47,276 nucleotides of DNA from Catenovulum agarivorans DS-2. Its GTDB lineage: Bacteria; Pseudomonadota; Gammaproteobacteria; Enterobacterales; Alteromonadaceae. Each line of letters starts with the position of its first letter. The stretch's first letter is position 1. The translations under genes and the position numbers were made by a program. The stretch lies in contig NZ_ARZY01000035.1 of the NCBI RefSeq assembly GCF_000568405.1, forward strand, positions 1 through 47,276, in the 5' to 3' direction. Positions 5,835 to 42,906 of this stretch are shown here, piece after piece. A model generated the notes under the pieces. It saw nothing but the letters and a program-made list of their open reading frames with translations, was not told the DNA's origin and did no database searches.

Positions 5835-5989
5835 GTATATTGAATAAACGTTATCGAATTTGAACTTTTTTGTTTTAATATGGTATTTAAAGCTGTTTAA
5901 GTGACGTTTATTTGCCATGAATTATCAACATAGGTTAGCCCTTGCGTTCAACTAAACCATTAAACACTCAGCGGATCGAGCCTAACACT

Positions 5990-9593: not shown

Positions 9594-9632
9594 TTTATAA
9601 GAAAAGCCTTAATGCTGCCAAGTTGCTACCCA
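9594..9632 (-). promoter_or_regulatory. Locus promoter motif, copy 1 (PL25 gene)
   Basis: On the minus strand TGGGTAGCAACTT begins at 9632 and GCTTTTCTTATAAA begins exactly 25 bp later at 9607, 48 bp before the start codon of the PL25 gene. It shares both boxes and their register with five other upstream regions in the window. Confidence 0.7.
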
Positions 9633-9640
9633 AAACAAAT

Positions 9641-9670
9641 AAAAAAAGCTCGCTAGTTACAGCGAGCTTT
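9641..9670 (-). terminator. Intrinsic terminator of PL24 transcript
   Basis: Read on the minus strand, AAGCTCGCT pairs with AGCGAGCTT over a 6-base loop and is followed by a run of seven T. It ends transcription from the PL24 gene, whose stop is about 100 bases upstream; a small inverted-repeat element lies between gene end and terminator. Confidence 0.8.
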
Positions 9671-9674
9671 ATAT

Positions 9675-9751
9675 TAGAGCGTGTTGAACTTTTTGGTATA
9701 AATTTTGTTCAAATTGCTGCAAAAATATACCACAAAGATCAACACGCTCTA
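9675..9751. mobile_element. 77-bp MITE-like element with near-perfect terminal inverted repeats
   Basis: TAGAGCGTGTTGA at the left end and TCAACACGCTCTA at the right end are perfect inverted repeats, and similarity continues inward (GGTATA / TATACC, TTTTG / CAAAA) to give arms of about 32 bases around a 12-base centre. It has no coding capacity. The form is that of a non-autonomous insertion element ended by TA; no matching transposase is in the window. It sits between the PL24 stop codon and the terminator. Confidence 0.65.
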
Positions 9752-9773
9752 GGCTATCAAAAGTCTTTTTAGG

Positions 9774-11360
9774 TTAATTAATGCCTAAATCGATAATTTG
9801 CAAATACAATGGTAATGAGCTGCCTTCGCCTCTTTCCATTAAATAATAATACGCCTTACCGTTTTTAATATGAATTGTACCGTGGTCAAATTGGGTACCG
9901 CCTTTTTGCTGATACATAGGTACAAAATCATTGGTACCGCCTTTGGCTTTTTCTACGTATGGATAACCGTTTTTCAAACCAATGATAAAAATATCATCGC
10001 CAGCTGTATATATTGAGTCACCACCGGTGAAGTCGGTCGAAATTTTAAACTCACTCGCACCAGCGGGTTTGTAGGCATGAATAGCGACTTCTTCATAATC
10101 AGGGCGCTTTCTGTCAGTCGAACGAGCTTTACTAATAATGTGAATGTCTTCGTTTTCCGTGACAGTCCAGTCAAACCCACCAACAATATACACAGAATTC
10201 GGCTCTTGGTGCGTCATATAATCGCCTGGCTCAAACACTTTTATTTCATCAGAGTTCACCAAAGGCCAAGTCATAGGTTCACCTTTATGGTTTTTCCACT
10301 CGCCCATGCCATCAGGATGATCAGAGTATGCGTAATACACACCGTTTTGATATTTGTACCTGTCGTTATTGTCGGCACTACGCTGTTGAAAGCTCACTCT
10401 AAGTTTGCCATTTAGGTACTTCATGTAGCCGTACAAGCCCCAGTTATATGGGTGCCCATGAGTTTTTTGATCTTTGTGATTAAACGGAGTAAAGCGAGTC
10501 CATTTTTGCTTTTCTGCATCGTATTTATTGAAATAATAAGCGCCGTTATTATTGCCCCCCCAGCGCATATAGTGGATTAATGTGCCATCAGTTGTGGTAT
10601 AAAATTTTGGATAAGTTAAAGCGACAAAATTATCTTTATCGGCTAAATCACCCGTCATGGTTAGGTGTTTATAGTCGTCAGGCCCTTCGCTCACTTCGCT
10701 GGTATCTTTTACAAATTGCGCTAATGTGAATTCTTCGTCACTCACGTCTGCAGCGCCTGGAACTGAATATGAATAACGGAAAAAGTCGTTAACAAAACGT
10801 CCTTTAAAACGGCCATTTTCATCATCATCCCGATAGGCGTGCATATCGTAAACCATATGAATAGTGCCATTTAACGGGCTAACGGCTAACCCTATCGTAT
10901 TGTGCGATTCTCCAACTAGAGGGTCTCCACGAAACCCGGTATGTTGATGCGGAAACTCAATGGTTTTAACCTTGCCTGTTTTAGTATTTAAACGCGACAA
11001 CATCACATTACGATTGTCTTTGCCGCCTTTATACCAAGTCATAAATACATAGTGCTTGTATGGTTTTACCGCATCGCCATGCGCCGAAATATTTTTACCA
11101 AAGAAGTAATCATACTCTGGGCCTTTTGATGGATTTTCAAACGTTTTATGATTCAGCTTTTTACCATCAAAATGCAAAGCACCATCGGTAATTTTAGTTT
11201 GGCTTTCTAAAACGACCAAGCCCGCTTGATTGTTTTCAAGAGTAGCAGTTGGTGGCGTATTGTTGGTTGCAGAGCAAGCAGTTAATACAGTAATTGCAAC
11301 CAAACTCTTGAGTGATGATAAGCATGCTACTTTGAGCTTGGATTGTTTAAATTTTTGCAT
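9774..11360 (-). CDS. PL24 ulvan lyase, lipoprotein
   Basis: Endo-acting ulvan lyase. The N-terminus is a lipoprotein signal ending in LTAC. H153 (GESHNT) and H174 (MVYDMHAY) are 21 residues apart, Y250 is in VALTYPKF and R266 in HYMRWGG. These match with one constant offset (7) the catalytic set I recall for the PL24 enzyme LOR_107 (H146, H167, Y243, R259). The propeller runs over the whole mature protein, and 528 residues is the usual length. GGAAG lies before the ATG. Unlike the PL25 and PL38-like genes, its upstream region shows no clear copy of the shared promoter motif, so it may be controlled differently. It ends at the terminator at 9641-9670. Confidence 0.92.
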
Positions 11361-11725
11361 CGAGTTTTGCTTCCAGTTTTATCAAATAGGGACAATGACA
11401 TGCTTACTCACGCAAACACGCATAAGTAAGCAAATTCAATCATCCGTTTAATATAGACGAAAATATTAATTATTCAACTAAGCTGGTCGCATCAAGCTGA
11501 TAATGGTAATCAGCTTGACCGGTAAAAAAACACTACTCAATTACAACTAACTGATAGTGAGACCATCACGTTGCGCCGTAGTTAAGGCTTTTTACCTCAC
11601 CATTGGAAATACTTGGCATAGAACCAAAACCAAAATCTCCTTTTCTAGAAAACCAAGGGGAAAGCAACAAAGCAATGGAATTACTCGTGTGCAATAGGAA
11701 CAAACTCAGCTCTAAATGTCTAATC
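11361..11725. other. Intergenic 365 bp with a perfect hairpin and a possible gene remnant
   Basis: Positions 11361-11460 are the PL24 leader. TCAAGCTGAT (11493-11502) and ATCAGCTTGA (11510-11519) form a perfect 10-bp stem with a 7-base loop, a possible terminator for the PL38-like gene although no T-run follows. On the minus strand, one frame just past the PL38 stop stays open to 11566 and would encode SPWFSRKGDFGFGS then MPSISNGEVKSLNYGAT; it has no start of its own and could be the tail of a lost gene. Confidence 0.3.
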
Positions 11726-13192
11726 TCAGAACTGTGGTGCATAGGTTAAAATCTCGACAGGTGTCAATTTATCATTGCCATGTAAGCCACTTGGGAGGAT
11801 TTTCACCCCCAACATCAACTGAGCTATAGTGAATTTTGGTAAAGCCAAATTAGCAAATGATGGCTCAACTCCACCGCCAGTAATTTGCTTCCATTTCCAT
11901 GCCTTTGGGTTGGAGAAATAGGGCACTACAAAGTCAAAAGCAGTTCTTAAACTAACGCCGTCAGGGCGCGTGTAATTCCACAAATCATTGCTGGTATGAC
12001 GACGACTTAAGTCAGTAATGCGAGCAAAGGCCCAAAGGTTATTCACTGTGTAATTCACGGATTTGGTCCGAGATAATTCTGCAGGCTGGCGGCCATTAGA
12101 GTCAATTTGTGAATCTATGCGCGATTTTGCAACATTGATTTGTGCATTTGCATCGTTCAATTTACCCAAATATAACTGCAGGCTAAGAGCTTGATAGTCG
12201 TAGTTAGTCCCATGGTTATTACCCCGAGTACTTTCTCTGATGCCTAATTCACTGGTGGTTAACCAAGTATAATAATCACTAAACCAATCTTGCATGCGTT
12301 GTTTGGCCCGTTCATCCCACATATTGTGCTTTTCTATTAATTGCACAGCGGTAATCACTTGGCCAATATCTGTAAAATCTATCACAGCAAAGTTAGAGCC
12401 ATCACTTTTGCCAGGTATTGCTTTGCCGTAGTTTAAATTGGGATTCATTCTAGTCGCTTTATCAACAAACCAAGTTTGGACAATTTCTCGTACCTTTTGC
12501 AAATAATCAGTTTTGCCAGACATATAAAAGGCAAGATTTAGTATTTCGAGTGACTTGAGCATGTTTTTTCTGCGTGACCAGTCGGTTGCAGGTCCAGAGC
12601 TATCTCGATTGAACTCTCCGTCTCGGTAAACCCAAGGCAAGCCATCAGGTTTAGTTGGATCAGGCCAATAATAGGCTCCAATAGTATGGTAGTCATGAAT
12701 ATCACCACTTGCAGCAATTAAGGTTTTGTTGGTGACTGGATCAACCGCTTTAACCAACTCAATATCTGCGAGCTTAATTAGCGCATTATATGCAGCAACA
12801 TATAGAGGGTTTCCGGCTTCAATTGCGGTTTTAGCTATATTGAGTCGTTCTTCATCTATACAAATTAAACTATCAGCGCCGCTATTTGGACTATCGGATT
12901 CGCTTACCTTGTATTGAACAGCACTGTTTTTATACGTCGACAAATTAGTGCCTGTTATGGTTTTAACAGAACCGAGGTCATTCACCACGCTAGCATTAGA
13001 GCCCTCAGCGCTCCAACGCGAAGTATCGCGTGTATCTCGGTCTAATAAATTTTTTGCAATGTTTAGAGTCTGCTGCGGTTGAATGAATTCAATAGTATAA
13101 GGAGTTGCTTGTTGTGTGCTAGCACTAGTAGAAAGCAAAACGCCAGTGGCAAGTAAGTTTAAAGTAAAAGTGTTGTACTTTTGTTTGGTCAT
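11726..13192 (-). CDS. Alginate-lyase-superfamily polysaccharide lyase (PL38-like)
   Basis: Secreted lyase of the PF05426 (alpha/alpha toroid) type, closest in motif content to PL38 glucuronan lyases. I start it at the ATG at 13192 (MTKQKYNTF), which has a strong GGGGGG ribosome-binding site and a Sec signal ending near STSAS; the frame runs on upstream to 13279 without a better start. Motifs: SGDIHDYHTIGAYYWPDP, GLPWVYRDGEFNRDS, ESTRGNNHGTNYDYQAL (Asn-His pair near residue 326, the neutraliser/base region in this superfamily), and NLWAFARITDLSRRH. It is a paralogue of the protein at 23547-25175 but lacks the lipobox, Thr-Pro linker and VCBS domain of that one. A glucuronic-acid-rich substrate, possibly within ulvan, is inferred. 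A good promoter-motif copy lies 75 bp upstream. Confidence 0.8.
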   Translation of the reverse strand: MTKQKYNTFTLNLLATGVLLSTSASTQQATPYTIEFIQPQQTLNIAKNLLDRDTRDTSRWSAEGSNASVVNDLGSVKTITGTNLSTYKNSAVQYKVSESDSPNSGADSLICIDEERLNIAKTAIEAGNPLYVAAYNALIKLADIELVKAVDPVTNKTLIAASGDIHDYHTIGAYYWPDPTKPDGLPWVYRDGEFNRDSSGPATDWSRRKNMLKSLEILNLAFYMSGKTDYLQKVREIVQTWFVDKATRMNPNLNYGKAIPGKSDGSNFAVIDFTDIGQVITAVQLIEKHNMWDERAKQRMQDWFSDYYTWLTTSELGIRESTRGNNHGTNYDYQALSLQLYLGKLNDANAQINVAKSRIDSQIDSNGRQPAELSRTKSVNYTVNNLWAFARITDLSRRHTSNDLWNYTRPDGVSLRTAFDFVVPYFSNPKAWKWKQITGGGVEPSFANLALPKFTIAQLMLGVKILPSGLHGNDKLTPVEILTYAPQF

Positions 13193-13253
13193 AAACCCCC
13201 CAGAAAATCTAGTTTTGTATATTTGTAGTGGATAAGGGCATGTTTTTACTTGC

Positions 13254-13292
13254 CTATTGGGAATAGCGAGCAAATGCAAAAAGTGCTACCCC
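13254..13292 (-). promoter_or_regulatory. Locus promoter motif, copy 2 (PL38-like gene)
   Basis: Minus-strand GGGGTAGCACTTTTTG begins at 13292; GCTATTCCCAATAG begins 25 bp later at 13267, 75 bp before the start codon. Both boxes agree with the other copies. Confidence 0.7.
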
Positions 13293-13318
13293 TTGTTAAA
13301 CAAAATACGACTTAGTTA

Positions 13319-13514
13319 ACCTGAACTCTGGATAACAAGTTAGCTACCTCATTGTTATTATTAGTTAAGTTTGTCTATGGTCATTCTAGAGAGATAGTTA
13401 TTCTTAGAACAAGGCGAATTTGCGTACGTAATAGCTGGCTATTACTAGCGAATGCAACGCAGTTATAAGGATAAATAGCCTCTAGAAAGCAAGTTGTTAT
13501 CCAGAGTTGAGGTT
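13319..13514. repeat. Nested palindromic repeat element, copy 1 (about 196 bp)
   Basis: Outer inverted repeats AACCTGAACTCTGGATAACA (left) and its near-complement (GTTATCCAGAGTTGAGGTT, right) agree at about 22 of 24 positions. Inside is a second long palindrome from TCTAGAG near 13386 to CTCTAGA near 13486, centred on GTAATAGC-TG-GCTATTAC (about 13427-13444). A degenerate second copy lies near 38.1-38.3 kb, sharing the exact 19-mer GGATAAATAGCCTCTAGAA. There is no coding capacity; it looks like a dispersed non-autonomous element able to form a cruciform. It separates two outward-facing promoter motifs. Confidence 0.75.
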
Positions 13515-13559
13515 AGTTACACAGCTAAAACTCGTTCAGATGCGTTTTTAGCGCTATTT

Positions 13560-13598
13560 GGGGTAGCAATTATTTAACTAACTCGCTTTTGTTAATAG
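13560..13598 (+). promoter_or_regulatory. Locus promoter motif, copy 3 (GH88 gene)
   Basis: GGGGTAGCAATTATTT starts at 13560 and GCTTTTGTTAATAG starts 25 bp later at 13585, 54 bp before the GH88 start codon. It is the closest copy to the consensus. Confidence 0.72.
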
Positions 13599-13638
13599 TT
13601 ATCGTTTTTCAACACATCGTATTAAAAGTGGAAGTATT

Positions 13639-15300
13639 ATGAAAAAACAAAGTTTAGTTCAGATGCTCGTTTCAACCATATTGATTGCAGGCTGTTCGCA
13701 GCAGCAACCAACTGAAATACAGCCAAAACAACCATCGTCTGTGAGCACTTTTTCTGTAGAGCAAGCACGCGAAAATTTAACTTTTGCTAAAGATCAATAT
13801 TTGAAAATGATCGAGCACGTCGAAAATAAACGGCATCAGTACAACCGCCCTGCATGCGAACAAGATCCAACTATGATTTGTATCCCTAGGTCGCAAGAGC
13901 ACGGCGGTATATTTATGGAAAAATACGCTAAATGGACCAATGGCTTTTTTCCAGGATTAATGTGGAAGCTATTGGCGAATAAACAAGAGATAGAATGGAA
14001 CGAAGGAGAAGAGCAAAAGCTATATCAAAGTGCTAAGTATTTTCAGCAAGCGTTGGAAAACGATGCGAGTCTCGCCTCAACTCATGATCTAGGTTTTATG
14101 CTATATGATTCATACGGTGAAGCGCTACATTACGAAGGTTTAGACTCAACTACTCGGCAAAAATATATTCAATTACTTGATACTGGCCGTGCGACCTTAG
14201 CAACACGATTCAGCGATCAAGAAGGTGTGATTAAGTCGTGGGACTTTGAGCCGCATATGAAGCTAACCACCATGGAAAACGGTGAGCAAAAAGTCGGCTT
14301 TTATTCACTGTCTGACCCATGGACTTTCCCTGTTATTATCGACAATATGATGAACCTGGAGTACTTATTCGATAGTGATGTTGAAAGATATCACCACATT
14401 GGATTTAGCCATGCTGAGCAAACCATGGTGAACCATTATTTTTATGATGAAGCCGACACAGCGAAACAATACCCATTGTCATACCATGTTTTTGACTATG
14501 GCGAAAACAAACCAGGCAACTGGCAAGGTTTAGGTAATGTATCGGCTTGGGCGCGCGGTCAAGGTTGGTCGTTATATGGATATTTAACTGTAGTTGAAGC
14601 TATGCAGCGCGCTAGAACCGATTTAAGCAACTATCCCGATTTTACCGCCCACTTGCATAGATTATTAGCATCGGTTGAACATTTGCTCGGTGATCAATAT
14701 GTCCCTTATTGGGATTTTTGGGCAGCCCGCGATAACGCTTATGAATACGCAGAAAATAAATCTCCAGAAACAGCCGTTTATTCAGGTATTTTAGAGTTAT
14801 GTGCTAAACGTTTAGAGGAGCATATCACCCCCTATAAAGGTTATCGACCACAGGTGCTGGAAGCTTCAATGTTATCTGAAGAATCACGCAATCGCCTAGC
14901 AGGTAAGAAAAACTGGTACGGTGAAGAGGTAATACAAGGTGATAAATTGGTACCTTGCGGCTCAAAACCTTATCCAGCTAGCCATCAAAAAATACCTAGA
15001 GATACCTCGGCATCAGCATTGTTTGCTTCAGCGTTCTACCGCTTTGCAACTATCACTAAGGACGTTGAATTACGTCAAAGATACGCAAAGTTAGCAGACA
15101 ATATTATGTTGGAGCTCACGCAAAACTACCGAACTGACCGCAATACAAACCGAGAAATCAGCCAAGATCTAGGTTTTGTTTTAGCCGAAGCAACCGGCAA
15201 TATGGGCAGCGCAGGTGAAATTGATACGCCAATTGTTTATGGTGATTTCTATTTTGTCGAAGCCAACATTCGCAAAATAGCGTACGAATTAAGCCGATAA
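13639..15300 (+). CDS. GH88 unsaturated glucuronyl hydrolase, lipoprotein
   Basis: Removes the unsaturated uronic acid that lyases leave at the non-reducing end of oligosaccharides. Lipoprotein signal MKKQSLVQMLVSTILIAGC. The family core follows: WTNGFFPGLMWKL, HDLGFMLYDSYGEALHYEGL with the first candidate catalytic Asp (D150), IIDNMMNLEYLF with the second (D235), GNWQGLGNVSAWARGQGWSL, PYWDFWAARD and IPRDTSASALFASAFYR. At 553 residues it is longer than classical GH88 enzymes because of an N-terminal extension and insertions. The enzyme at 28919-30601 is a close paralogue. GAAG lies before the ATG. It has its own promoter-motif copy and stands directly upstream of the TonB-dependent receptor, on the same strand. 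Which lyase products it takes is not visible; PL24, PL25 and PL38-like products all fit. Confidence 0.9.
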   Translation: MKKQSLVQMLVSTILIAGCSQQQPTEIQPKQPSSVSTFSVEQARENLTFAKDQYLKMIEHVENKRHQYNRPACEQDPTMICIPRSQEHGGIFMEKYAKWTNGFFPGLMWKLLANKQEIEWNEGEEQKLYQSAKYFQQALENDASLASTHDLGFMLYDSYGEALHYEGLDSTTRQKYIQLLDTGRATLATRFSDQEGVIKSWDFEPHMKLTTMENGEQKVGFYSLSDPWTFPVIIDNMMNLEYLFDSDVERYHHIGFSHAEQTMVNHYFYDEADTAKQYPLSYHVFDYGENKPGNWQGLGNVSAWARGQGWSLYGYLTVVEAMQRARTDLSNYPDFTAHLHRLLASVEHLLGDQYVPYWDFWAARDNAYEYAENKSPETAVYSGILELCAKRLEEHITPYKGYRPQVLEASMLSEESRNRLAGKKNWYGEEVIQGDKLVPCGSKPYPASHQKIPRDTSASALFASAFYRFATITKDVELRQRYAKLADNIMLELTQNYRTDRNTNREISQDLGFVLAEATGNMGSAGEIDTPIVYGDFYFVEANIRKIAYELSR

Positions 15301-15308
15301 ACCCAAAT

Positions 15309-15327
15309 AGCGCCACGTCGTGGCGCT
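15309..15327 (+). terminator. Short hairpin after GH88 gene
   Basis: AGCGCCAC and GTGGCGCT form a perfect 8-bp stem with a 3-base loop, 9 bases after the stop. No T-run follows, so it may be only a partial terminator before the receptor promoter. Confidence 0.45.
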
Positions 15328-15420
15328 AATGATTCCACACTAGCAACAACCAACTAACGCAGTTCCCTCCGACCACAATTTAACAAAAAAAACCATTTTA
15401 AATCACATTTTGTCAAAAAA

Positions 15421-15459
15421 GGGGTACTAATTTGCATTTCGTCTTGCTGTTCTTATTGA
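15421..15459 (+). promoter_or_regulatory. Locus promoter motif, copy 4 (TonB receptor operon)
   Basis: GGGGTACTAATTTGC starts at 15421 and GCTGTTCTTATTG starts 25 bp later at 15446, 66 bp before the receptor ATG. The first box differs from consensus at two positions (ACTAA for AGCAA). Confidence 0.68.
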
Positions 15460-15511
15460 AGCACTTGCTTCTTAGTACAGAAAAATTCCATATATGGGGA
15501 AATAACTTGTA

Positions 15512-18500
15512 ATGAATAAGAACACAAACAATCAAAAACAACATAGCGTTGGCAAATCGCTATTAGTTGGAGGGTCGGCTAGCTTGCTGATGTCGCTTTT
15601 CACGCCATCAGTATTGGCGGCAGAAGTCAGTTCAGTACTAAATGCCAACAACAATGAAAGTGAAGAAGTAGAAACAATTGAAGTGACTGGTGTACGTGGC
15701 TCTTTAGAATCGGCATTGCTAGAAAAACGCGAAGCACTATCAATTGTGGATGCTATTTCAGCTAAAGATATGGACTCCTTGCCAGCACTTGATTTAGGTG
15801 AAGCAATGCAATCTATCCCGGGTGTGCAGTTAAATACGGATGACTCAGGTCGCAATTCACATATCACTTTGCGTGGTCTACCGGGCGGTTATGCAAAAGT
15901 CATTGCTGAAGGGCAATCTTTTGCAATACCCAGCCGTAGCCGCGGTGTGGTTGGCGCATCTAATCCATTTGGTGCATTTGAAGCCAGCGTATTTGATGGA
16001 GTCACCGTCATTAAAGCAACTACGGCTGATTTACAAGAAGGTGGTATGGCCGGTGTGGTAAATAAAAAGCTACAACGTGCGCTGGGTTCAAAAGACGGTA
16101 AATATTCAGTTGGCATTGGTGGCCGCTATGAAGAGTTGACAGATGACTGGAACACAACCTTTAAGCTATCCGCATCAAAGCACATTATTAAAGACAAACT
16201 CGCAGTTGCGATAAAAATGGCTGGTTCAAAGCAAGTTTTCCGTAGCGACACCGCCAACTTTACCGAATATGTCGCGTTAAATTCATTAAGCAACAATCAA
16301 ACTGTCTACAATGGATTAATTTCACCAGAAGACCTAGAAGCCTATAAAGCAGAACATGGCATTAACGAGCCACTTTCTGTTGTCAAAGCAATTGGTAAAG
16401 CGCATCAGGTCACAGTCAATAACCGAGGCAGACGGTTTTCAACAACAGGCAACATTGAGTGGAAGCCAACGGATGAGCTAAAGCTAGGTGCGAACTTTCT
16501 TTATACAATAAAGAACATGGACGACAGCAATATGGAAGATGTGTTGTTTCAAGTAGATAGAGGCTCACAGCTAGATACACAAAGGCTAACGCCATTAAGT
16601 GCACCTATTCGCTTAGACGATATTGCCAACCCAGATTACAATTCCGAAACAGATAATCCGGATATGGCTACGATTCCTGTCTATGCGGTTACTCACTCAA
16701 AAATGACCAATGTGTCTTATAAACCATCTAACCGATTACAAACATCAAAAGATGAAGCCAAAGGGATATTTTTATACGCTGACTATGTCAAAGATGATTG
16801 GAAACTAGATGCAACTGTCACCAGATCAAGTTCTGTGAGTGAAGCGTCACAAGAAGGCATAGATCTGCGCTTATCCAACAAAACCAATAATAGATATCAA
16901 GACTTAGATGACGGTCAGAGATATACCTATGCAGTGACTGGTATTAATGGGGAAGTCAATACTGGACGCGGCAATTTAAAAAATGCATTTGCAACCGTTG
17001 AGGGATTTGAAGACTATCACTACGCCGATGTAAATGGCATTTTTCAACAAACGGACCCTGCAACTGGCGAACTGATTTATGATCTGGGCGACAATGCGTG
17101 GAAGCGCTTTGACAACGGTTGGACGCCCGTTCGGGTGACACGGTTTGGTAGCAACCTAGATCCAAAAATTAATCCTGTTGATTATGATGACTACCCGCAA
17201 GATTATTTCTACAACAAAGCTGTTGAAGCACTTCAAAAAGCTAAAGACCCACTGACTGAAGAAAACATAGCCGCTGAATTGGCAGAGCAAAAAGCCGAAA
17301 TTGGCGGTAAATCACTCGATTTTTACGTCAATGGCCGATACGAGCGTCCTGAACGTGATATGAAATCCTTTGAATTTAATGCTGAACGCTACACTGATAT
17401 CGGCGGCGATTCATTCTTGCTCACCAGTGTTAAGAGTGGTTTTCGTCATTCACGTGAAACCTTAGAAGCTTATGACCGGAGACTGGGTAGTGGCGGTATC
17501 AGTGTAGGTTTGCTCGATGGCAGTGAGTTTTATAAAGATCAGTTAACCTCAGATAGCCAAAATGAATTTTTTAATGGTGACTACCCCAATCACTTTGGTT
17601 CAGATGCTGGCTGGCAAGTACTTGACTCTAAAAACCTCAAAGAGATTATTCAAACGGACATGGTCGCTCTAGACGAAAACGGTGAGGTTGATGACAGGTT
17701 CAAAAAAATACCTGGACTTGGATTTGCCGAAAAGTTAACCACCTTTGAAGATGGGGCTGTCGTCAATGCAAATTTCCGCCAAAACTTCAGCGCGGACCAA
17801 GCAATAAATGCTGTATATTTAATGGGTAAATTTGAAGGTTACCTTGGCGATTTCAGTTATACAGGTAATGCGGGTGTACGTTACGTTGAAACATCAAATG
17901 ACGTGGTTGGACAAGGCTTTAACATAGATGGTAATGCGGTTGCTATATTAACAGAAACCAATTATACCAACACCTTACCTTCATTTAATCTTGCAGTAGA
18001 TTTAACCGATGATGTGGTGTTTAGATCGGCGTATTCAAAAGCACTTGTGCGTCCTAACCTGTTGTCGCAAACCCCTAGCCCAGTTAATACCAGTAATGAT
18101 AATCGAGTCAGACTCGAAAACTCAAAAGCAGAAGTATTACCCTATACGTCAGATAACTACGACCTTTCATTAGCTTGGTACAACCGCGACGGTTCATCTA
18201 TTTCTGCCGGTTTTTTCTATAAAGAAATTGAAGGAAAAATTGTCAGTGAATCGATTTGTCCTATCGGCAACCATGAACAATGGGGTACGGGCGAACTAGG
18301 ACGAGACACTGAAGGCAACTGCATTGAGGTAGGCGAATATCAAGCCGAAAATGGTGAAGTCTATTTCAACCGAGACGTCAGTATTAAACATACTTACAAC
18401 AGTGACATTCCAGTTAAGGTTTATGGTTACGAGCTATCAATTCAACAAAAATTGGATTTCTTAGCATATCCATGGAACGGTTTTGGCGGCAAGCTCAACT

Positions 18501-18886
18501 TCACCAAAATCGATTTAGATGAAGGTGGCGGCATTCCTATGACCAAAATCGCACCTCATACAGCTAACTTAATCGCCTATTGGGAAAACCATGGTGCCAG
18601 CATTCAATTTATCTATAACTGGCAAGACGAAAAGCTCCTGAGTACAGGTACTGAGTCGGGCACATTCTTAGGTACCGAAGCGCGTACACAAACATCAGGG
18701 GGGCGTCTTGATATGGCTGCTCGCTACCGATTTAAAGGTAGCCTAAAAGGCCTTTCGCTCAACCTTAAAGCAATCAACCTAAACAACCGTCAAGAATATG
18801 AGTTCATAGGTGGTAATGACAAAGCGATTAACCGTATTCGTTACCAGGGGCGCATTATTCAGGCAGGCATAGGTTACAGCTTTTAA
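15512..18886 (+). CDS. TonB-dependent outer-membrane receptor for oligosaccharides
   Basis: Imports oligosaccharides across the outer membrane using TonB energy. The signal peptide ends at SVLA (about residue 36). A TonB box lies at about 52-60 (EVETIEVTG), followed by VRGSLESALLEKREALSIVD, a start typical of carbohydrate receptors in Alteromonadales and their relatives (TIGR01782 style). The plug shows AMQSIPGVQL and ITLRGLPGGY; the barrel runs to the C-terminal QAGIGYSF with the terminal Phe needed for barrel assembly. At 1124 residues it is in the size range of large glycan receptors. Two lipoprotein genes follow after 58 and 33 bases and end at one strong terminator, so the three form an operon. 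That operon likely captures and imports lyase products. The exact ligand is inferred from the locus. Confidence 0.92.
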   Translation: MNKNTNNQKQHSVGKSLLVGGSASLLMSLFTPSVLAAEVSSVLNANNNESEEVETIEVTGVRGSLESALLEKREALSIVDAISAKDMDSLPALDLGEAMQSIPGVQLNTDDSGRNSHITLRGLPGGYAKVIAEGQSFAIPSRSRGVVGASNPFGAFEASVFDGVTVIKATTADLQEGGMAGVVNKKLQRALGSKDGKYSVGIGGRYEELTDDWNTTFKLSASKHIIKDKLAVAIKMAGSKQVFRSDTANFTEYVALNSLSNNQTVYNGLISPEDLEAYKAEHGINEPLSVVKAIGKAHQVTVNNRGRRFSTTGNIEWKPTDELKLGANFLYTIKNMDDSNMEDVLFQVDRGSQLDTQRLTPLSAPIRLDDIANPDYNSETDNPDMATIPVYAVTHSKMTNVSYKPSNRLQTSKDEAKGIFLYADYVKDDWKLDATVTRSSSVSEASQEGIDLRLSNKTNNRYQDLDDGQRYTYAVTGINGEVNTGRGNLKNAFATVEGFEDYHYADVNGIFQQTDPATGELIYDLGDNAWKRFDNGWTPVRVTRFGSNLDPKINPVDYDDYPQDYFYNKAVEALQKAKDPLTEENIAAELAEQKAEIGGKSLDFYVNGRYERPERDMKSFEFNAERYTDIGGDSFLLTSVKSGFRHSRETLEAYDRRLGSGGISVGLLDGSEFYKDQLTSDSQNEFFNGDYPNHFGSDAGWQVLDSKNLKEIIQTDMVALDENGEVDDRFKKIPGLGFAEKLTTFEDGAVVNANFRQNFSADQAINAVYLMGKFEGYLGDFSYTGNAGVRYVETSNDVVGQGFNIDGNAVAILTETNYTNTLPSFNLAVDLTDDVVFRSAYSKALVRPNLLSQTPSPVNTSNDNRVRLENSKAEVLPYTSDNYDLSLAWYNRDGSSISAGFFYKEIEGKIVSESICPIGNHEQWGTGELGRDTEGNCIEVGEYQAENGEVYFNRDVSIKHTYNSDIPVKVYGYELSIQQKLDFLAYPWNGFGGKLNFTKIDLDEGGGIPMTKIAPHTANLIAYWENHGASIQFIYNWQDEKLLSTGTESGTFLGTEARTQTSGGRLDMAARYRFKGSLKGLSLNLKAINLNNRQEYEFIGGNDKAINRIRYQGRIIQAGIGYSF

Positions 18887-18944
18887 CTAAAAGGTTTAGC
18901 GCTTTGAACAGTTTTAGAAGAATAGAATTAACAGGAAAGACCCA

Positions 18945-20528
18945 ATGAAAAAACAAATATTAGCTATGTCGGTCGCCGCGGCACTAACCGGATGTGACCT
19001 TGACAATATGGATGACTTACAAGTCTCAGCTACATTCGCCAATAACTTTACCACTGAAGTTGGTTTTTACGGTACTGAAGGTTATGGTTTTGATGTTGAA
19101 TTAACCACAGGCCATGGTCAAGCTGAAGGTGAACTTGGCGTATTCGACGTCAACTTTGGCGAAGCTGAACCCAACTACGATATGATCCCTGAAGCCATGT
19201 ACGGAACTTTCACATTAGAGTATGTTGAATCAGGCTTAGCTAAATGGACATATGACTTAGATGAAACCCACCCAGAAGTGGCGGCGATATTAGATGTTGC
19301 CAATGCCTCAATTACTGACAAACTGACCATTACAACATTGGATGGTACAACCCAAGATCTCAACTTTATCATCAAGGGCGTTGACCCAAGTCTACCCGCT
19401 GAAATAAAAGGCGCGTTGACCGCGAATGCTTCAATTCGAGAAACCTCAGCATTCGGCGCTGTTACCGTTTATGACCCGAATTTTGGTGAATCAAAATTTC
19501 AAATAGGTCCAGTGGATGATGACGGTAATCCAATTGGTATTTTATCTGACAACGGCTATGGCTCTCTCTTTATTGACGAAAATGGTACTTGGGAATTTAA
19601 AGTCAATCGCATTGCCAAAAACCCAGAAGATGAAACCCAAACACTTAAAGATATGTTACCTGAAGCTGATAGCCCACCAGTGACAGACACTGTCACCTTA
19701 ACAACATTAGATGGTACAACCCAAACCATTGACGTTAATATATATGGTGCGGTCCCCAACTTTGCCCCCGAGCTACTCAGTACCACAACTGAAGAAAGTT
19801 GGTTTGATATCAATATGGATTTAGCTGGTCTAGAACCACATAAAACCCGTAACGGCAAAATAGTATTTAAAGCCAAAATTACTCAAGATTTATCTAGACA
19901 AGCGAGCTTTTCTATTGGTTGTAGCTCTAATTTCCACAACGATGAAAAAAGACGGGTCGCCACTTTCTATATTCAGCCTGATGGTCAATTTGAAATGTGG
20001 TCTGGCGAACTTAAAGCTGGCAAAACCTATGACGATAGGGGTATCCCAGGTATTTTTATCACCCCACCCAAATATAAAAAGGTCATTTTTGATCAACGCT
20101 TTGTTCCAGGTGAGTGGTCTGAATTTATCATCACATGGGAAGGCGCGAGTTTAACGCAAAAGCCTTTATTAAAAGCCACCCTTGATGGTGAAAGCTTAAC
20201 CTCGGTACACCCTGCTATCCCGACTGATCCGGATCAAGGTTTTGTTGGCTCAACCCTTGGCGGAAAGCTGCCTGTGCAGTGTGTCAATCAAATGCGCTTT
20301 TATGTCAATGCCGATGAAGATGAAGGCGGTTATGGCGCCATGATGGTAGATGATATTCAGTACTACACAGATATAGATGCCGACCCAATATTTGAAGCAG
20401 ACACTAAAGCCCTTTTAAACGAAAAGTTTGCTAACAGCCAAGCTGGGGATGTCGTGCAAGAAATGACTGTTGAAGGCGCAAATGTCTATGAGGGCTCTAC
20501 AGAAAATGTGCTAATTGCACGGGATTAA
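18945..20528 (+). CDS. Surface lipoprotein with VCBS-type repeats and jelly-roll domain
   Basis: Lipoprotein (MKKQILAMSVAAALTGC) of 527 residues, second gene of the receptor operon, with AGGAAAG before the ATG. About residues 25-270 hold two VCBS/cadherin-like repeats, each ending in a strand pair such as DKLTITTLDGTTQDLNFIIK and DTVTLTTLDGTTQTIDVNIY. About 280-490 look like a concanavalin-type jelly roll (GKIVFKAKITQDLS, WSEFIITWEGASL, MMVDDIQYYTD). No catalytic motif is recognised. A surface glycan-binding partner of the TonB receptor is the most likely role, by position and fold. It could also be an unrecognised lyase of the jelly-roll type. I know no gene name for it. Confidence 0.72.
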   Translation: MKKQILAMSVAAALTGCDLDNMDDLQVSATFANNFTTEVGFYGTEGYGFDVELTTGHGQAEGELGVFDVNFGEAEPNYDMIPEAMYGTFTLEYVESGLAKWTYDLDETHPEVAAILDVANASITDKLTITTLDGTTQDLNFIIKGVDPSLPAEIKGALTANASIRETSAFGAVTVYDPNFGESKFQIGPVDDDGNPIGILSDNGYGSLFIDENGTWEFKVNRIAKNPEDETQTLKDMLPEADSPPVTDTVTLTTLDGTTQTIDVNIYGAVPNFAPELLSTTTEESWFDINMDLAGLEPHKTRNGKIVFKAKITQDLSRQASFSIGCSSNFHNDEKRRVATFYIQPDGQFEMWSGELKAGKTYDDRGIPGIFITPPKYKKVIFDQRFVPGEWSEFIITWEGASLTQKPLLKATLDGESLTSVHPAIPTDPDQGFVGSTLGGKLPVQCVNQMRFYVNADEDEGGYGAMMVDDIQYYTDIDADPIFEADTKALLNEKFANSQAGDVVQEMTVEGANVYEGSTENVLIARD

Positions 20529-20561
20529 AGCACTGACTTAAAAAGAATTAAAGGTAATACA

Positions 20562-23429: not shown

Positions 23430-23451
23430 CCTTTCCAATACCGCAAAAAAG

Positions 23452-23520
23452 CAACCTAGCGCGACTTGCTCGCGTTAGGTTAGCAATAAACCCCATGACT
23501 TATGCATGGGGTTTATTTTT
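23452..23520 (+). terminator. Terminator of receptor operon
   Basis: A first hairpin (AACCTAGCGCGA / TCGCGTTAGGTT, one mismatch) is followed by a strong one (AATAAACCCCATG / CATGGGGTTTATT, 23485-23517) and a T-run. The same stem, read on the minus strand, lies outside the convergent PL38-like gene and could stop that transcript as well. Confidence 0.85.
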
Positions 23521-23546
23521 TGCTTAATTATTTAGCCAAGATTAAA

Positions 23547-25175
23547 TTAAGGCGCATACGTCAGTATTTCGATGGCAGTAAACTTATCCGAGCCATCTAA
23601 ACTGTCTGGTAAAATATCTTCACCTAACATAAGTTCTGCTTTGCTAAACATCGGCAATGCTAAGTCTTGTAATGATGGTTCAACCCCACCACCGGTAATT
23701 TGTTTCCATGACCAAGCATCAGGGTTATTAAAATAAGGCACCACAAAATCAAAAACTTTTTTTACGCTAACCCCATCTTTGCCAGTATAAGCCCATAAGT
23801 CATTGTTAGTGTGGCGGCGACCAAGATCCACTATTCGCGTTAAAGCCCATAAGTTATTTACCGTATAATTGACTGACTTAGAGCGCTTTAACTCTTCAGG
23901 CAGGCTGCCGTCAGCAGCAACTTGTGAGTCGATTCGTGTTTTTGTGACATCAATTTGTGCTTCTGCGTCAGCAATTTTACCCAAGTAAATTTGCAGACCC
24001 AGTGCTTGATGGTCATAGTTGGTGCCATGATTATTACTGCGGGTACTTTCGAAAATACCTAACTCGCTAGTGGTTAGCCAGGTGTAATAATCAGCAAACC
24101 ATTGTTGCATGGTTTGACTATCCGAGTCTGTCCATAGGTTATTTTTTTCAATCAGTTGTACTGATGTCATCACATGACCAATACTATTCCATTGTAAAAT
24201 ACCAAATCCACTGCCGTCTGATTTGCCAGGGACAGCACTACCATGGTTTACATTCGGGTTCATTTTAGTAGCTTCATCTACAAACCAAGTTTTGACAATC
24301 TCTTTGGCTTTTTCTAAATAAACCATGTCTTCGGAGAAATAGAACGCAAGATTCAGAATCTCCAACGCATTGAGCATATCTCTGCGGCGTTTATAATCAG
24401 CTGTAGGGCCATTAGAAGTATCTCGATTGTACTCACCATCTCGATAAACCCATGGTAATCCGTCGTCTGTGTCTGGGTTTGGCCAGTAATAAGGACCTAT
24501 TGAATAATAATCGTGAATATCACCACTTGCTGGAATTAACGTCTTGTTGGTAACAGGATCTACCGCTTTATCTAATTCTTTATCCGCAAGGGTCATAAGC
24601 GCTTGGTAAGCGTCGACATATTCAGTTTTATTGGCTTCAAGTAAAGTTTTAGCCTGAGTCAGTTTGTCTTCATTTAAAAAAATCAGCTCATCAGGTCGCT
24701 GGTTATCTGCTTTATCAACCCCTTTAATTGTGATGACAAGTTTAGTTGTCGTGCCATCCACAGATTCGAGTGTGATGGATTCAACCGCTCTGTCTGATTC
24801 ACTCGTCCAAGCAGTAAATTTTTCGTGCGCAGGGTTTAAGTTATATGTCCAACCGCCCTGCTCTGTAATTGAGAAGTTGCCATATTGAGCGGTCGCCGAA
24901 GTATTCAAACCAGCTTCACCTGGGTCAACGTCAGAAACCACAACTAAACCCGTTAAGCTGGTATCGTTCAAGCTGACTTCGCCAGCTAAATCCCCCGAAA
25001 ATTTAGCGGCTGAATTTGGCGAGGGTGTTGGAGTAGGTGTTGGAGTAGGTGTTGGTGTGGGCGTTTGGGTTTGGGGCGGTGGATTACTCGTATCCTGCCC
25101 GCCACTACTTGAACCGCCGCCGCAAGCAGCCAAACCAAATATGATAGCTGGGGTTATTAATAATGCTTTTTTCAT
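23547..25175 (-). CDS. PL38-like lyase lipoprotein with Thr-Pro linker and VCBS-type domain
   Basis: Surface-anchored lyase of the alginate-lyase superfamily. I start it at the ATG at 25175 (MKKALLITPAIIFGLAAC), which opens a clear lipobox; the frame runs upstream to 25310 but that part does not look like a signal. After GGGSSSGG comes a (TP)n linker encoded by GTTGGAGTAGGT-type repeats at about 25021-25070. Next is one VCBS-type domain (YGNFSITEQGGWTYNLNPAH, DGTTTKLVITIKG) and then the catalytic domain with SGDIHDYYSIGPYYWPNP, ESTRSNNHGTNYDHQALGLQ and NLWALTRIVDLGRRH. The catalytic part is closely similar to the lyase at 11726-13192. The shared VCBS module suggests it works at the cell surface together with the receptor lipoproteins. 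Its promoter-motif copy lies about 197 bp upstream. Confidence 0.82.
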   Translation of the reverse strand: MKKALLITPAIIFGLAACGGGSSSGGQDTSNPPPQTQTPTPTPTPTPTPTPSPNSAAKFSGDLAGEVSLNDTSLTGLVVVSDVDPGEAGLNTSATAQYGNFSITEQGGWTYNLNPAHEKFTAWTSESDRAVESITLESVDGTTTKLVITIKGVDKADNQRPDELIFLNEDKLTQAKTLLEANKTEYVDAYQALMTLADKELDKAVDPVTNKTLIPASGDIHDYYSIGPYYWPNPDTDDGLPWVYRDGEYNRDTSNGPTADYKRRRDMLNALEILNLAFYFSEDMVYLEKAKEIVKTWFVDEATKMNPNVNHGSAVPGKSDGSGFGILQWNSIGHVMTSVQLIEKNNLWTDSDSQTMQQWFADYYTWLTTSELGIFESTRSNNHGTNYDHQALGLQIYLGKIADAEAQIDVTKTRIDSQVAADGSLPEELKRSKSVNYTVNNLWALTRIVDLGRRHTNNDLWAYTGKDGVSVKKVFDFVVPYFNNPDAWSWKQITGGGVEPSLQDLALPMFSKAELMLGEDILPDSLDGSDKFTAIEILTYAP

Positions 25176-25358
25176 GTTAGTAGCCTTATTGTTATATAGT
25201 CGTAATACGACTGGTTTCATATTAAATTCGGCAAACACGCTTGTTAGCTCAGCTAACTTCAACAGAGCCCTTGGCGCAAGGAAGATATCGCTTTGAACTT
25301 GCCATGGCATCTTGTTAAAAAATATTGGCGCGTGGTGCCGGGATCGGAAACTTTGTCT

Positions 25359-25397
25359 TTATTAAGAAGAGCTACTAACGAATGAGATTACTACCCC
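25359..25397 (-). promoter_or_regulatory. Locus promoter motif, copy 5 (PL38-like lipoprotein gene)
   Basis: Minus-strand GGGGTAGTAATCTC begins at 25397 and GCTCTTCTTAATAA begins 25 bp later at 25372. It is farther from the ATG (197 bp to 25175) than the other copies, so the transcript would have a long leader, or an upstream start such as 25310 is used. The rest of the gap 25176-25546 shows no gene. Confidence 0.62.
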
Positions 25398-25546
25398 TAA
25401 AGGTCAATTTTTATTAGCTCATTGCTTTTACTAATTAGAGGTGAAAGCGCCTATTGCTGCTGTCTAGGCGCATAAGTTAATATTTTTTGGCAGAGCATTA
25501 AGCTTGCCTTTTATGTGGCTTTGTCGCGTTTCATTTGCATATTAAA

Positions 25547-26371
25547 TTAATTCGCTGGTGCTAATGTTGAAACGCTGAAATTTTTATAACGAGCACTGCG
25601 AGTATACATGTGGCGTAAGCCAATGCGACCTTCTGTAATATCTGGGTGGCTAGTCAAATCCCAATGATAAATTTGGCTTTGCGTTTGATTAACAACTCTC
25701 ATCCATAAATTTTGTCCTTTTTTAATCACAGTAATGCGATGTGGAACACCCGTCTTAAACAAGCCAGTGTTCATATTATCACCTTCTAATGCTGTACCTT
25801 TTAAACCTCTGTTTTCAAGCGGTAGATAACGGCGCGCTCGAACATAATCTTTATCAGCATCATTATTTTCTATCCCAAATGCTGCATAACTAATGTGGTA
25901 AGTATTCATGTTGTCGAAATAGTGCCGCATATAAGGCGCTTGTCGATAATCAGCCCAGCGCATAATATCTTTATCAAATTGAGCCGTGCCCTCACCGTTG
26001 GCCAACAGATAAAGAATGTTAACGTAGCGAATAGCTGAGTCGGTACGGGTGTATTCATACTCGACTTTAATATCGCCTGTAAAAATTTGCTTGCTCCAAA
26101 CGACAAAATGATGCGCGTGATTATTTGCTTCAGGTCCAGCTTTTACATGCATACCTTTTGGAGAATTTTCCACCGAGCCAACAAGGCCGTCGACAAACCA
26201 ATGCTCACGCCAGTTTTTATCACCAGAATCAAACATAACTTGTTGCCAAGCTGAGTTGTTAATTTGATTAAATTCAATTTGTTTAGCTTGCGTACTGGTT
26301 AACTCTTGTGCTTGCGCGGCACAGCTAACGGCCCATAATAAATTTAAGGCTATTTTCAATTTTTTATACAT
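25547..26371 (-). CDS. DUF1961-type secreted protein
   Basis: Exported protein of about 274 residues, started at the ATG at 26371 (MYKKLKIALNLLWAVSCAAQA, Sec signal). It follows the PL25 gene by 10 bases on the same strand, with its ribosome-binding site inside the end of that gene, so the two are co-transcribed and coupled. The body is a beta-sandwich protein with WREHWFVDGLVGSVENSPKG, HAHHFVVWSKQIFTGDIKVE, YEYTRTDSAIRYVNILYL and EGRIGLRHMYTRSARYKNF, which I recognise as the DUF1961 family (concanavalin-like). I cannot name a proven reaction. Coupling to an ulvan lyase makes a role in processing or binding its products likely. Confidence 0.72.
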   Translation of the reverse strand: MYKKLKIALNLLWAVSCAAQAQELTSTQAKQIEFNQINNSAWQQVMFDSGDKNWREHWFVDGLVGSVENSPKGMHVKAGPEANNHAHHFVVWSKQIFTGDIKVEYEYTRTDSAIRYVNILYLLANGEGTAQFDKDIMRWADYRQAPYMRHYFDNMNTYHISYAAFGIENNDADKDYVRARRYLPLENRGLKGTALEGDNMNTGLFKTGVPHRITVIKKGQNLWMRVVNQTQSQIYHWDLTSHPDITEGRIGLRHMYTRSARYKNFSVSTLAPAN

Positions 26372-26381
26372 AACTAACCAC

Positions 26382-27821
26382 TTATTGCTTGTTAATTTGG
26401 TATTGACGTTTAAATGCAGCTGACACATTGTTTGCTTGAGCCAAGTCTCTAAGTACAGGCCCTTTTTCACCAACCAGATACATTCTTCTTAAATGTGAAT
26501 TCTCGATTTTTTCTGAAACCAACATCAAAGCATCAGGATGGGCGTTGCGAATAAATGAAGATACTTGCACACCAAAGGTTTTATTTGCCAGTACCACATC
26601 ACCTTTTTTGAAGGTTTTACCGCCATTAACACTATGGTGCCACGAAATCATATGAGATTTATCTTGTGCCCTGCTGGTTAATAAAGCACTTATTTTTAAA
26701 GGCGAGTACACAATATGATCACCATTAGAAATAGGCAGATGGCCAATTTTGCTTGCAATCCATTGAGCACCATCCCAACGATAATAAACCGCCTTTTTCG
26801 GACCACCTTGGTGACGGTTTTTATGGTGCCCGCGGGCAAAACGAATATGCGGGTAACCATTATCGTCTAAATGAACCGTACTTATACCTGTCCAGTCATC
26901 GGTATGCTCGGTTTTAAATACTAAGGTTTTTTGATTAGCCGTTTCGCGGTCAATCGGAGTGGCCAGAGCTTCACCTTGAACATTAGACCATTGGCCGGTT
27001 TTAGTATTCATTTGCATATAATAACCATTAGAGCGCTCACCTAAATGCTTACCATTGGCATGGCTGTTACCGCAGCGATGATAAATATAAGCCAGCGCTA
27101 TAGTATCCTGGGCTTCTTCAGAAAAATAACCATACCAAGAATCAACCCCTAAACCATCGCTGCGTGTTTTCGGTTGCATAACTGAGACTCTTTTGCCAAA
27201 AGTTCGGCCATGATCAGTCGATTTTTGGTAAACCCAGTGACTTTGATGTGCGCCATGGCGATAAAATAAGTAGAGATCGCCATTACTGGTTTTAACCCAC
27301 TGATTATAAGTACCAAAAGGCGAAACATTATCCAGCTCTTGCCATTCTGTTATGTCGTAAGGGCGCTTGGAAACAACATGCTTTAACTTGCCATAATTGT
27401 AGTTACCCATATCATTTTCACCCATGTCCGGCGTCCCGCCATGGCCACCAAAAGCAATGTGGATGTAACCCAAGTCGTCAATAATTAAAGCAGGTTTACC
27501 ATGATTATCAATTTTTCGTGTTGGATCTTTGCCCATCGCGCTGGTGCCAGCCTTGAACGGTCCAAGCCATTCTTGGGTATTGTGGTTGTAAGCAGCAACA
27601 TAGGGGTCTTCTAGTGGCCCTTGGTAAGTTACATAAGTTATGCCATTAGCATGTTCGCCAGCTGGATGCTGTAAAGTGGCAACCGGATTACTCAAGCCTG
27701 AATCGGTAAAATAATCGACCTGGATATTTTTACGCTTGCTATTAGAATGACCATTGCCAGTCATTTGGCAACCCACTAAAGCAAACAGGCTAACTAAAAT
27801 TAGGCAATTAAGTTTTATCAT
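26382..27821 (-). CDS. PL25 ulvan lyase, lipoprotein (second copy)
   Basis: Lipoprotein (MIKLNCLILVSLFALVGC) and clear paralogue of the PL25 enzyme at 8123-9559. The five active-site residues are H107 (DNHGKP), H127 (GGHGG), Y172 (GTYNQ), R188 (FYRHGAHQSHWVY) and Y230 (DSWYGYF), all at one constant offset (16) from the residues I recall for PLSV_3936. Length of 479 is normal. First gene of a two-gene operon with the DUF1961 protein. The upstream region carries one of the best promoter-motif copies. Two PL25 enzymes in one locus suggest different preferred sites (for example iduronate versus glucuronate, or sulfation pattern) or dosage; the sequence does not say which. Confidence 0.92.
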   Translation of the reverse strand: MIKLNCLILVSLFALVGCQMTGNGHSNSKRKNIQVDYFTDSGLSNPVATLQHPAGEHANGITYVTYQGPLEDPYVAAYNHNTQEWLGPFKAGTSAMGKDPTRKIDNHGKPALIIDDLGYIHIAFGGHGGTPDMGENDMGNYNYGKLKHVVSKRPYDITEWQELDNVSPFGTYNQWVKTSNGDLYLFYRHGAHQSHWVYQKSTDHGRTFGKRVSVMQPKTRSDGLGVDSWYGYFSEEAQDTIALAYIYHRCGNSHANGKHLGERSNGYYMQMNTKTGQWSNVQGEALATPIDRETANQKTLVFKTEHTDDWTGISTVHLDDNGYPHIRFARGHHKNRHQGGPKKAVYYRWDGAQWIASKIGHLPISNGDHIVYSPLKISALLTSRAQDKSHMISWHHSVNGGKTFKKGDVVLANKTFGVQVSSFIRNAHPDALMLVSEKIENSHLRRMYLVGEKGPVLRDLAQANNVSAAFKRQYQINKQ

Positions 27822-27853
27822 TTTTATTTGTTTCCAATTTAAACGTCAGGGGT

Positions 27854-27892
27854 CATATAAAATAAGCAGCCCACTTCGCCAATTGCTACCCT
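27854..27892 (-). promoter_or_regulatory. Locus promoter motif, copy 6 (PL25-DUF1961 operon)
   Basis: Minus-strand AGGGTAGCAATTGGCG begins at 27892 and GCTTATTTTATATG begins 25 bp later at 27867, 46 bp before the start codon. Confidence 0.7.
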
Positions 27893-36351: not shown

Positions 36352-36464
36352 GATTTTCTTCCTCACTATAGTTCTATTTTTAAATGATAACGTCTATTTA
36401 TAACTGTGTATAGGGCATTATTTAATATTTTTATCAATAGTGATTCGACTAGTTGGAATCATAA

Positions 36465-42901: not shown

Positions 42902-42906
42902 ACGAT

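Follow-up and report, generated by a model that had tools for sequence, protein, structure and literature searches.

The DNA analyzed here, referred to as the window, is the entire 47,276-bp contig C35 of Catenovulum agarivorans DS-2 (NZ_ARZY01000035.1, positions 1 to 47,276). Its locus at 490-32267 has a gene content that suggests a rhamnose- and uronic-acid-containing polysaccharide, ulvan, as the substrate. Six genes of this locus are preceded by copies of one two-part element, which we interpret as promoters for an extracytoplasmic function (ECF) sigma factor encoded in the same locus. Among the enzymes, the product of 8123-9559 matches PDB 5UAM/5UAS (“Ulvan Lyase-PL25”), and the second PL25-type gene matches BNR_4, with Pfam as the sole test. 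Both PL38-like genes have an Alginate_lyase (PF05426) match, and for the first there are PDB matches as well (3NFV, 8BDQ). The gene at 13639-15300 has no Pfam match, yet it matches the GH88 structure 3WIW. A GH106 rhamnosidase, a sulfatase, a TonB receptor, and two VCBS-repeat proteins were also identified from Pfam and PDB. The sigma gene, the gene behind it, and the elements are placed as follows, with element scores from a matrix built on other genomes.

5942..6520, + strand: ECF sigma factor, gvs1-like (TIGR02989, TIGR02937, Sigma70_r2, Sigma70_r4_2)
6517..8136, + strand: presumed membrane anti-sigma/sensor, with helices 3-55, one transmembrane helix at 102-124, FecR-like strands, and a C-terminal LamG domain
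9596..9632, - strand: candidate promoter element before the PL25-type gene 8123-9559; TGGGTAGCAAC-N14-GCTTTTCTTATA; 25.8 bits; box to ATG 73 bp
13256..13292, - strand: candidate promoter element before the PL38-like gene 11726-13192; GGGGTAGCACT-N14-GCTATTCCCAAT; 23.1 bits; box to ATG 100 bp
13560..13596, + strand: candidate promoter element before the GH88-like gene 13639-15300; GGGGTAGCAAT-N14-GCTTTTGTTAAT; 29.3 bits
15421..15457, + strand: candidate promoter element before the TonB-dependent receptor gene 15512-18886 and the two VCBS genes behind it; GGGGTACTAAT-N14-GCTGTTCTTATT; 19.4 bits
25361..25397, - strand: candidate promoter element before the second PL38-like gene 23547-25310; GGGGTAGTAAT-N14-GCTCTTCTTAAT; 29.0 bits
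27856..27892, - strand: candidate promoter element before the second PL25-type gene 26382-27821, with the DUF1961 gene 25547-26473 behind it; AGGGTAGCAAT-N14-GCTTATTTTATA; 25.6 bits

A preliminary description of this DNA had located the six boxes at 9632-, 13292-, 13560+, 15421+, 25397-, and 27892-, and all are present at those coordinates and strands. They share the register GGGGTAGCAAT-N14-GCTnTTCTTAwt, and each is oriented toward a gene. As had been described, the distance from the first base of the box to the start of GCT is exactly 25 bases in 6/6 copies, and the letters downstream of it resemble nTTcTTA in all of them. From GCT to the first plausible ATG, the distances are 48, 75, 54, 66, 62, and 46 bp, in the order given above. 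An alternative signal-peptide-like start, judged by eye, lies 45 codons downstream in the gene at 23547-25310; therefore, the earlier count of five copies within 46-75 bp of the start codon is kept as the safer one. The spacing between boxes had been noted as 15-16 bp. The two-box form holds, and the refined consensus has a gap of 14 bp.

In a leave-one-out scan of both strands of the window, the held-out site (15.7-26.3 bits) and the five training sites outranked all other positions, and the best non-site position for the six-site matrix scored 13.2 bits. With the matrix from 22 regions of other genomes, the six sites scored 19.4-29.3 bits, and the next-best window position, inside a coding region, scored 14.1. 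The loose pattern GGGTANYANYN{13,15}GCTNNTN has 11 matches in the 4.57-Mb genome, six of which are the window sites, and a reversed-pattern control has 9. It is the clustering and not the rarity of the loose pattern (11 vs 9) that carries weight; the binomial p for 6/11 matches on the window’s contig is ~5e-10, for a pattern that was itself derived from those six.

The element also recurs near related ECF genes. In a family survey of 395 genomes, 13 carry such an ECF (the window’s genome and 12 others, whose close relatives have 42-79% identity) and 382 do not; a profile search of the 13 returned 31 strong ECF genes and one weak match. A family matrix was trained on 22 ECF-locus regions outside the window’s genome, with the window, contig C11 of the same genome, the hold-out loci, the Lentisphaerales genomes, and the control stretches all kept out of training. 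Its refined consensus is GGGGTATCAAT-N14-nCTnTTCTTAAT. It gave 67 matches in 783 kb, training loci included, and in 398 kb of control DNA from some of the same genomes no position reached 16 bits. Because counts in ECF loci are partly self-fulfilling for a matrix trained there, the six-site matrix served as an additional test, and it gave 31 matches of at least 18 bits in 696 kb of ECF loci from other genomes. In the 398 kb of control, it gave 1.

Among the 13 hold-out loci from named genomes, 8 have a site of at least 20 bits, where a shuffled null gives 0.00 per 20-kb locus at 18 bits. Three of these (L106, L103, L104) closely duplicate one another or a promoter in the training set, and five (L088, L093, L095, L100, L101) are independent. 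No placed site was found in L108-L111. In an unbiased count, GGGTATCAAT was observed 27 times against 2.0 expected, in 16/22 regions. Of 38 ECF genes (35 gammaproteobacterial, 2 Lentisphaerales, 1 Phycisphaeraceae), 36 are the closest ECF to one or more sites of at least 18 bits; a Neiella paralogue and the gene from Phycisphaeraceae (16.5 bits) are the two exceptions.

A strict form of the pattern has 55 matches in the 13 ECF genomes (reversed 3) and, summed by hand from the table, 117 in the 382 genomes without the ECF. Four or more strict matches per genome were found in 7/13 genomes with the ECF and in 0/382 without. Strict matches are absent from one ECF genome (G164), which nevertheless has a 23.3-bit site beside its ECF. 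For the complete genome G049, six matches lie within 34 kb of one ECF, four within 53 kb of the other, and two elsewhere, by a 55-kb limit that was chosen after the positions were known. The window’s own genome has a second clade ECF (54%) on contig C11, with sites across ~95 kb of that contig, and on its contig C19 there are two sites, with no clade ECF found on the contig. The preliminary description had proposed a regulon of six genes in one locus. The elements themselves stand, while their confinement to those six genes does not, since the element recurs elsewhere.

Placement is promoter-like. Out of 77 sites of at least 18 bits, 73 are intergenic and 69 fall within 300 bp before a same-strand gene, compared with 12.6% and 3.9%, respectively, of 13,200 random positions. 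The median distance from box to ATG is 89 bp (middle half, 73-164). The gap between boxes is 14 bp in 85/100 sites, 15 bp in 7, and another length in 8, and the element is non-palindromic. The 73 first target proteins, annotated with no background set for comparison, include GH106 (14), a GH78-type rhamnosidase domain (12), BNR_4 (12), TonB plug (7), polysaccharide lyase (4), and sulfatase (3). Orthologues of window genes have sites at similar positions: a gene in G177 that is 90% identical to 13639-15300 has one at the equal distance of 79 bp, and four orthologues (70-80% identity) of the second PL25-type gene have one 68-91 bp upstream. Frequent positions are divergent to the ECF gene (10) and directly behind the FecR-LamG gene (10). 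Only one site aims at an ECF gene within 900 bp (1/38), and self-activation is therefore not the rule.

The -35 half of the element is nearly constant, and the first -10 base is often common to the sites of one locus. In same-genome pairs (66 sites), agreement at this base was 0.70 for sites of the same ECF and 0.22 between loci, and it was 0.54 vs 0.24 with outlying stretches added (permutation p 0.0005 in both cases). The base is G in 6/6 window sites. For the -35 box, the comparison within and between loci gave p 0.15, then 0.0135 with more sites, for a small difference of 8.94 vs 8.61 of 11 letters. The spacer, used as a control, gave p 0.19, then 0.0255 with more sites, and slight shared descent is therefore present. 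Two further approaches were set aside. The first -10 base was ruled out as a clade marker, as G versus other needs 8 changes on the ECF tree (counted with no shuffle). The correlation between ECF and site distances in a Mantel test (r 0.266, p 0.0005) was not used, since the spacer, expected to be code-free, gives r 0.295 and shared descent therefore explains it.

Related ECFs are also found in other phyla. Two Lentisphaerales ECFs, with 51-53% identity, branch within the gammaproteobacterial set, in a weakly resolved region of a short-search tree, which suggests exchange of the ECF between phyla in a direction that the tree does not give. The two Lentisphaerales metagenome-assembled genomes (MAGs) in the hold-out set have sites of 20.3 and 22.4 bits. 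Of six pattern places in the Lentisphaerales genomes, five score 21.0-29.6 bits with the gammaproteobacterial matrix, and four of those five (L164, L165, L158, L169) have a long open frame 65-104 bp downstream. Named by eye, the downstream frames include two that are sulfatase-like and one PSCyt1-like cytochrome. Strict matches number 3 in each of these genomes vs 2 reversed in each, and the case is made by matrix scores and placement, not by counts. In Phycisphaeraceae, one 16.5-bit site lies by the ECF, and the genome has 0 strict matches vs 2 reversed.

The presence of an ECF sigma gene in the locus, as the preliminary description had it, is borne out by the product of 5942-6520, which scores 72.9 bits against the ECF superfamily model TIGR02937 (cut-off 42.9) and so belongs to the superfamily. 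An ATG at 5990 is as likely a start as the TTG at 5942. The protein scores 44.8 bits against Sigma70_r2 (cut-off 24) and 22.8 bits against Sigma70_r4_2, below the cut-off of 25.7. Its PDB relatives are ECF sigmas (e.g., SigW, 5WUQ). Against TIGR02989 (Sig-70_gvs1), it reaches 122.5 bits, ~2 bits short of the curated cut-off of 124.55, and it is therefore named gvs1-like; for all 13 aligned ECFs, the E-value against this model is 1e-25 or lower.

The gene at 6517-8136 encodes a product with Pfam matches to LamG and, weakly, FecR, and such a FecR-LamG gene adjoins the ECF gene in 29/29 loci examined (28 fetched and the window). An AlphaFold2 model made with 24 relatives (pLDDT 83.0, pTM 0.71) has, from N to C terminus, helices 3-55, a helix at 102-124 that coincides with a hydrophobic segment, strands, and the LamG part. 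By a simple hydropathy scan, all 38 partners have a single strong hydrophobic segment at residues ~102-152. The partner would accordingly be arranged as an N-terminal cytoplasmic domain, one transmembrane helix, and an outer domain. Laminin_G_3 is found in 24/24 aligned partners. In a Foldseek search, the best single-domain match was a module of a carbohydrate enzyme, AbnA arabinanase domain 4 (5HON; 19% identity, TM-score 0.72 by target length). Other matches were pentraxins and neurotoxin jelly rolls that bind receptors, where only the fold is alike. By its likeness in fold to sugar-binding modules, the LamG part is a putative carbohydrate-binding jelly-roll. Neither sigma nor partner had a Pfam match to SigI/RsgI domains, and the window’s TonB receptor had only Plug and beta-barrel matches at E 0.001, with no N-terminal signaling domain. 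A search for the ECF in viral contigs and a search in plasmids for DNA similar to one promoter region found none. Beside an intact pair in G238 (contig C48, joined region G238c ~17165-19557, L050), an ECF fragment of 34 aa and a FecR-LamG fragment of 126 aa look like a decayed duplicate of the pair.

The preliminary description had read the element as an ECF -35/-10 pair served by the ECF of the locus. This reading is supported by recurrence near related ECFs, by promoter-like placement (69/77), and by concentration in ECF genomes. The element also shows the two boxes at a fixed spacing, directed at genes and tied to a sigma gene, that mark ECF promoters. The elements, their register and placement, their recurrence with this group of ECFs, and the partner’s domain order are all established from sequence. 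The six elements are very probably cognate promoters of a polysaccharide-sensing ECF/FecR-LamG switch, of which sigma-promoter binding, anti-sigma action, sugar sensing, and proteolysis are the steps that we infer. RNA polymerase with the locus sigma (5942-6520) would read the six -35/-10 promoters. The presumed anti-sigma (6517-8136) would hold the sigma with its cytoplasmic helices, one helix spanning the inner membrane and the FecR-like and LamG lectin-type domains lying in the periplasm. Ulvan fragments entering via the TonB receptor would bind the LamG/FecR part; direct sensing of the polysaccharide by the partner is favored because the window’s receptor has no signaling domain. The anti-sigma would then release the sigma, with regulated proteolysis, known from FecR and RsgI, as the probable means. 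The freed sigma would jointly activate the TonB receptor gene and those of the lyases and the GH88-type hydrolase, forming a positive loop on uptake.

Several observations weigh against this reading. Some sites have no clade ECF in the DNA examined (G085 C10; G250 C2, C11, C21; G000, the window’s genome, C19; G113 C2:153 kb), and for others the nearest ECF is up to 71 kb away. The 117 strict matches in genomes without the ECF indicate that the pattern also arises by chance. ECF carriers are also polysaccharide degraders, with a GH106 close to the window’s gene in 13/13 ECF genomes vs 4/382 others, so another common regulator is possible. The FecR match of the window’s partner (22.6 bits) is below the Pfam cut-off of 24, and FecR was found in 8/24 partners (E 0.001). 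In G177, the closest relative of the window sigma (77%) adjoins sites with C/T/C/G/C at the first -10 base, while the GCT sites lie near a 62% paralogue; pairing by neighborhood is therefore sometimes wrong.

This last point bears on the alternative that survives best, in which the promoters are genuine but are served by several ECF paralogues or by another one, such as that on contig C11 of the same genome. Sites in G177 that fit a non-neighboring sigma are what it predicts, as are a -35 half almost invariant between paralogues (8.6 of 11 letters between loci) and C11 sites of both GCT and GTAGTAAT forms. We nevertheless regard it as unlikely, given the agreement of the first -10 base within loci in both sets of sites and the G shared by all six window sites. 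It is considerably less probable that the element is the operator of an unlinked regulator of polysaccharide loci, of the LacI, AraC, or response-regulator type, with the ECF as a bystander. Such a regulator could co-occur with GH106 in the ECF genomes and could act at sites distant from any ECF. However, a non-palindromic element with a fixed orientation to its gene and a nearly fixed gap argues against an operator, the ECF/FecR pair is the only clear regulator by Pfam among the tested open reading frames of 490-32267, and sites accompany individual ECF genes into distant genomes, including the two Lentisphaerales MAGs.

Ordinary sigma-70 promoters, with upstream sequence kept through duplication of enzyme genes, are a very improbable explanation. 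Some targets are indeed paralogous (two PL25-type, two PL38-like), and in the larger set the spacers of one locus resemble each other slightly more, but the conserved downstream block nCTnTTCTTAAT is not TATAAT, the spacers differ, and the elements precede unrelated families (GH106, GH78, BNR_4, TonB receptors, sulfatases). Chance or a repeat artefact, to which the 9 reversed-control matches of the loose pattern and the 117 strict matches without an ECF might be credited, has a negligible probability, as clustering, leave-one-out ranks, hold-out loci, and controls contradict it.

Other genes of the locus had been described as having no good copy of the element, and this was also found here. 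The best scores before the PL24, GH43, sulfatase, and second GH88 genes are 7.7, 5.9, 0.0, and -1.3 bits, respectively, where the random reference has its 95th percentile at 6.8 bits and its 99th at 10.5 bits. The PL24-like and GH106 genes share the divergent region 2223-2466, in which two weak relics, both below threshold, were noted.

2382..2418, + strand: weak relic before the GH106 rhamnosidase gene 2466-5786; CTGGTATCAAC...CATTTAGTTGGT; 7.4 bits at -84
2298..2333, - strand: weak relic before the PL24-like gene 490-2223; TTGGTATTAAT, 13-bp spacer; 7.7 bits at -110

The GH106 orthologue in G177 (90% identical) has a 19.8-bit site at -73, and given this strong site, the window’s GH106 copy of the element may have been weakened. 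A site lies upstream of GH106 at 10/23 loci in ECF genomes and at 0/6 in others (p 0.057), an enrichment that is suggestive only; the scan covered 29 of 30 listed loci, and the remaining entry is the latter half of a G049 gene. The contig is probably a plasmid, as indicated by its genes of the Rep3-like, ParA-like, and Ter (Tus-like) types at 34235-43482. The Alteromonas plasmid pAlt76 likewise combines a Ter-like gene with ulvan-type genes, and in a stretch of this plasmid (Alteromonas sp. 76-1) without an annotated sigma factor, an annotated alpha-L-rhamnosidase has a 22.1-bit site (L083:30724) 72 bp upstream. The nearest annotated TonB-VCBS-VCBS operon, in Catenovulum adriaticum (L081, receptor 54%), has no site of at least 17 bits in 49 kb and no annotated sigma there.

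To our knowledge, the control of polysaccharide loci in marine gammaproteobacteria is poorly known relative to Bacteroidota. No description of the ECF/FecR-LamG clade or its promoter was found in the literature searched, whose coverage left subscription journals largely outside, and the accessible portions of PMC7953866 (on Catenovulum ulvan genes) and PMC5943477 contain no mention of FecR or LamG. From DNA alone, the element allows each sigma’s target genes to be predicted, even those beyond the visible locus, and it assigns a likely sensor protein to each locus. G177 and G085 have seven such ECFs apiece (a distant match among those of G085), which provides a natural set of paralogous sigma/promoter pairs for studies of cross-talk. 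It is also a case of a control code common to different phyla, and one that makes control of algal-sugar digestion readable. More tentatively, and with slightly more reason for doubt than for acceptance, the ECF sigma, the lectin-type membrane anti-sigma, and their own promoter code could form a transferable module in marine Gammaproteobacteria and Lentisphaerota, perhaps also Phycisphaerae. Several copies per cell would work as independent channels, insulated from one another mostly by the first -10 base, with each LamG reading a different rhamnose-rich algal polysaccharide.

Three known systems invite comparison. All 13 aligned ECFs match Sig-70_gvs1 of Rhodopirellula/Verrucomicrobium (TIGR02989), whereas the clade described here consists mostly of gammaproteobacterial members and is linked to genes for algal polysaccharides, and the window’s ECF is 2 bits below the cut-off of that model. 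As in FecI/FecR, an ECF sigma gene is followed by that of a one-pass membrane regulator with a FecR-like part, the operon stands beside a TonB receptor, and the ECF gene is mostly without its own site. Unlike in FecI/FecR, the partner ends in LamG, and the window’s receptor has no N-terminal signaling domain; therefore, signaling via an extension of the receptor plug is unsupported. RsgI-type membrane anti-sigmas bear a carbohydrate-type outer domain. Sigma/anti-sigma control of biomass enzymes is already known from clostridial SigI/RsgI, and it is the ECF/FecR-LamG variant that appears to be new. For Clostridium thermocellum, the accessible part of PMC6056542 describes such control by SigI/RsgI, with paralogous sigmas that have slightly differing promoters and a specificity assigned chiefly to the upstream portion of the -35 element, the -10 element differing only slightly. 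Both systems pair paralogous alternative sigmas with membrane anti-sigmas to control polysaccharide-degrading enzymes. However, the system described here has other protein families, gram-negative hosts, and LamG rather than carbohydrate-binding-module-type sensors, and in its promoters the -35 element is nearly constant while the first -10 base varies by locus.

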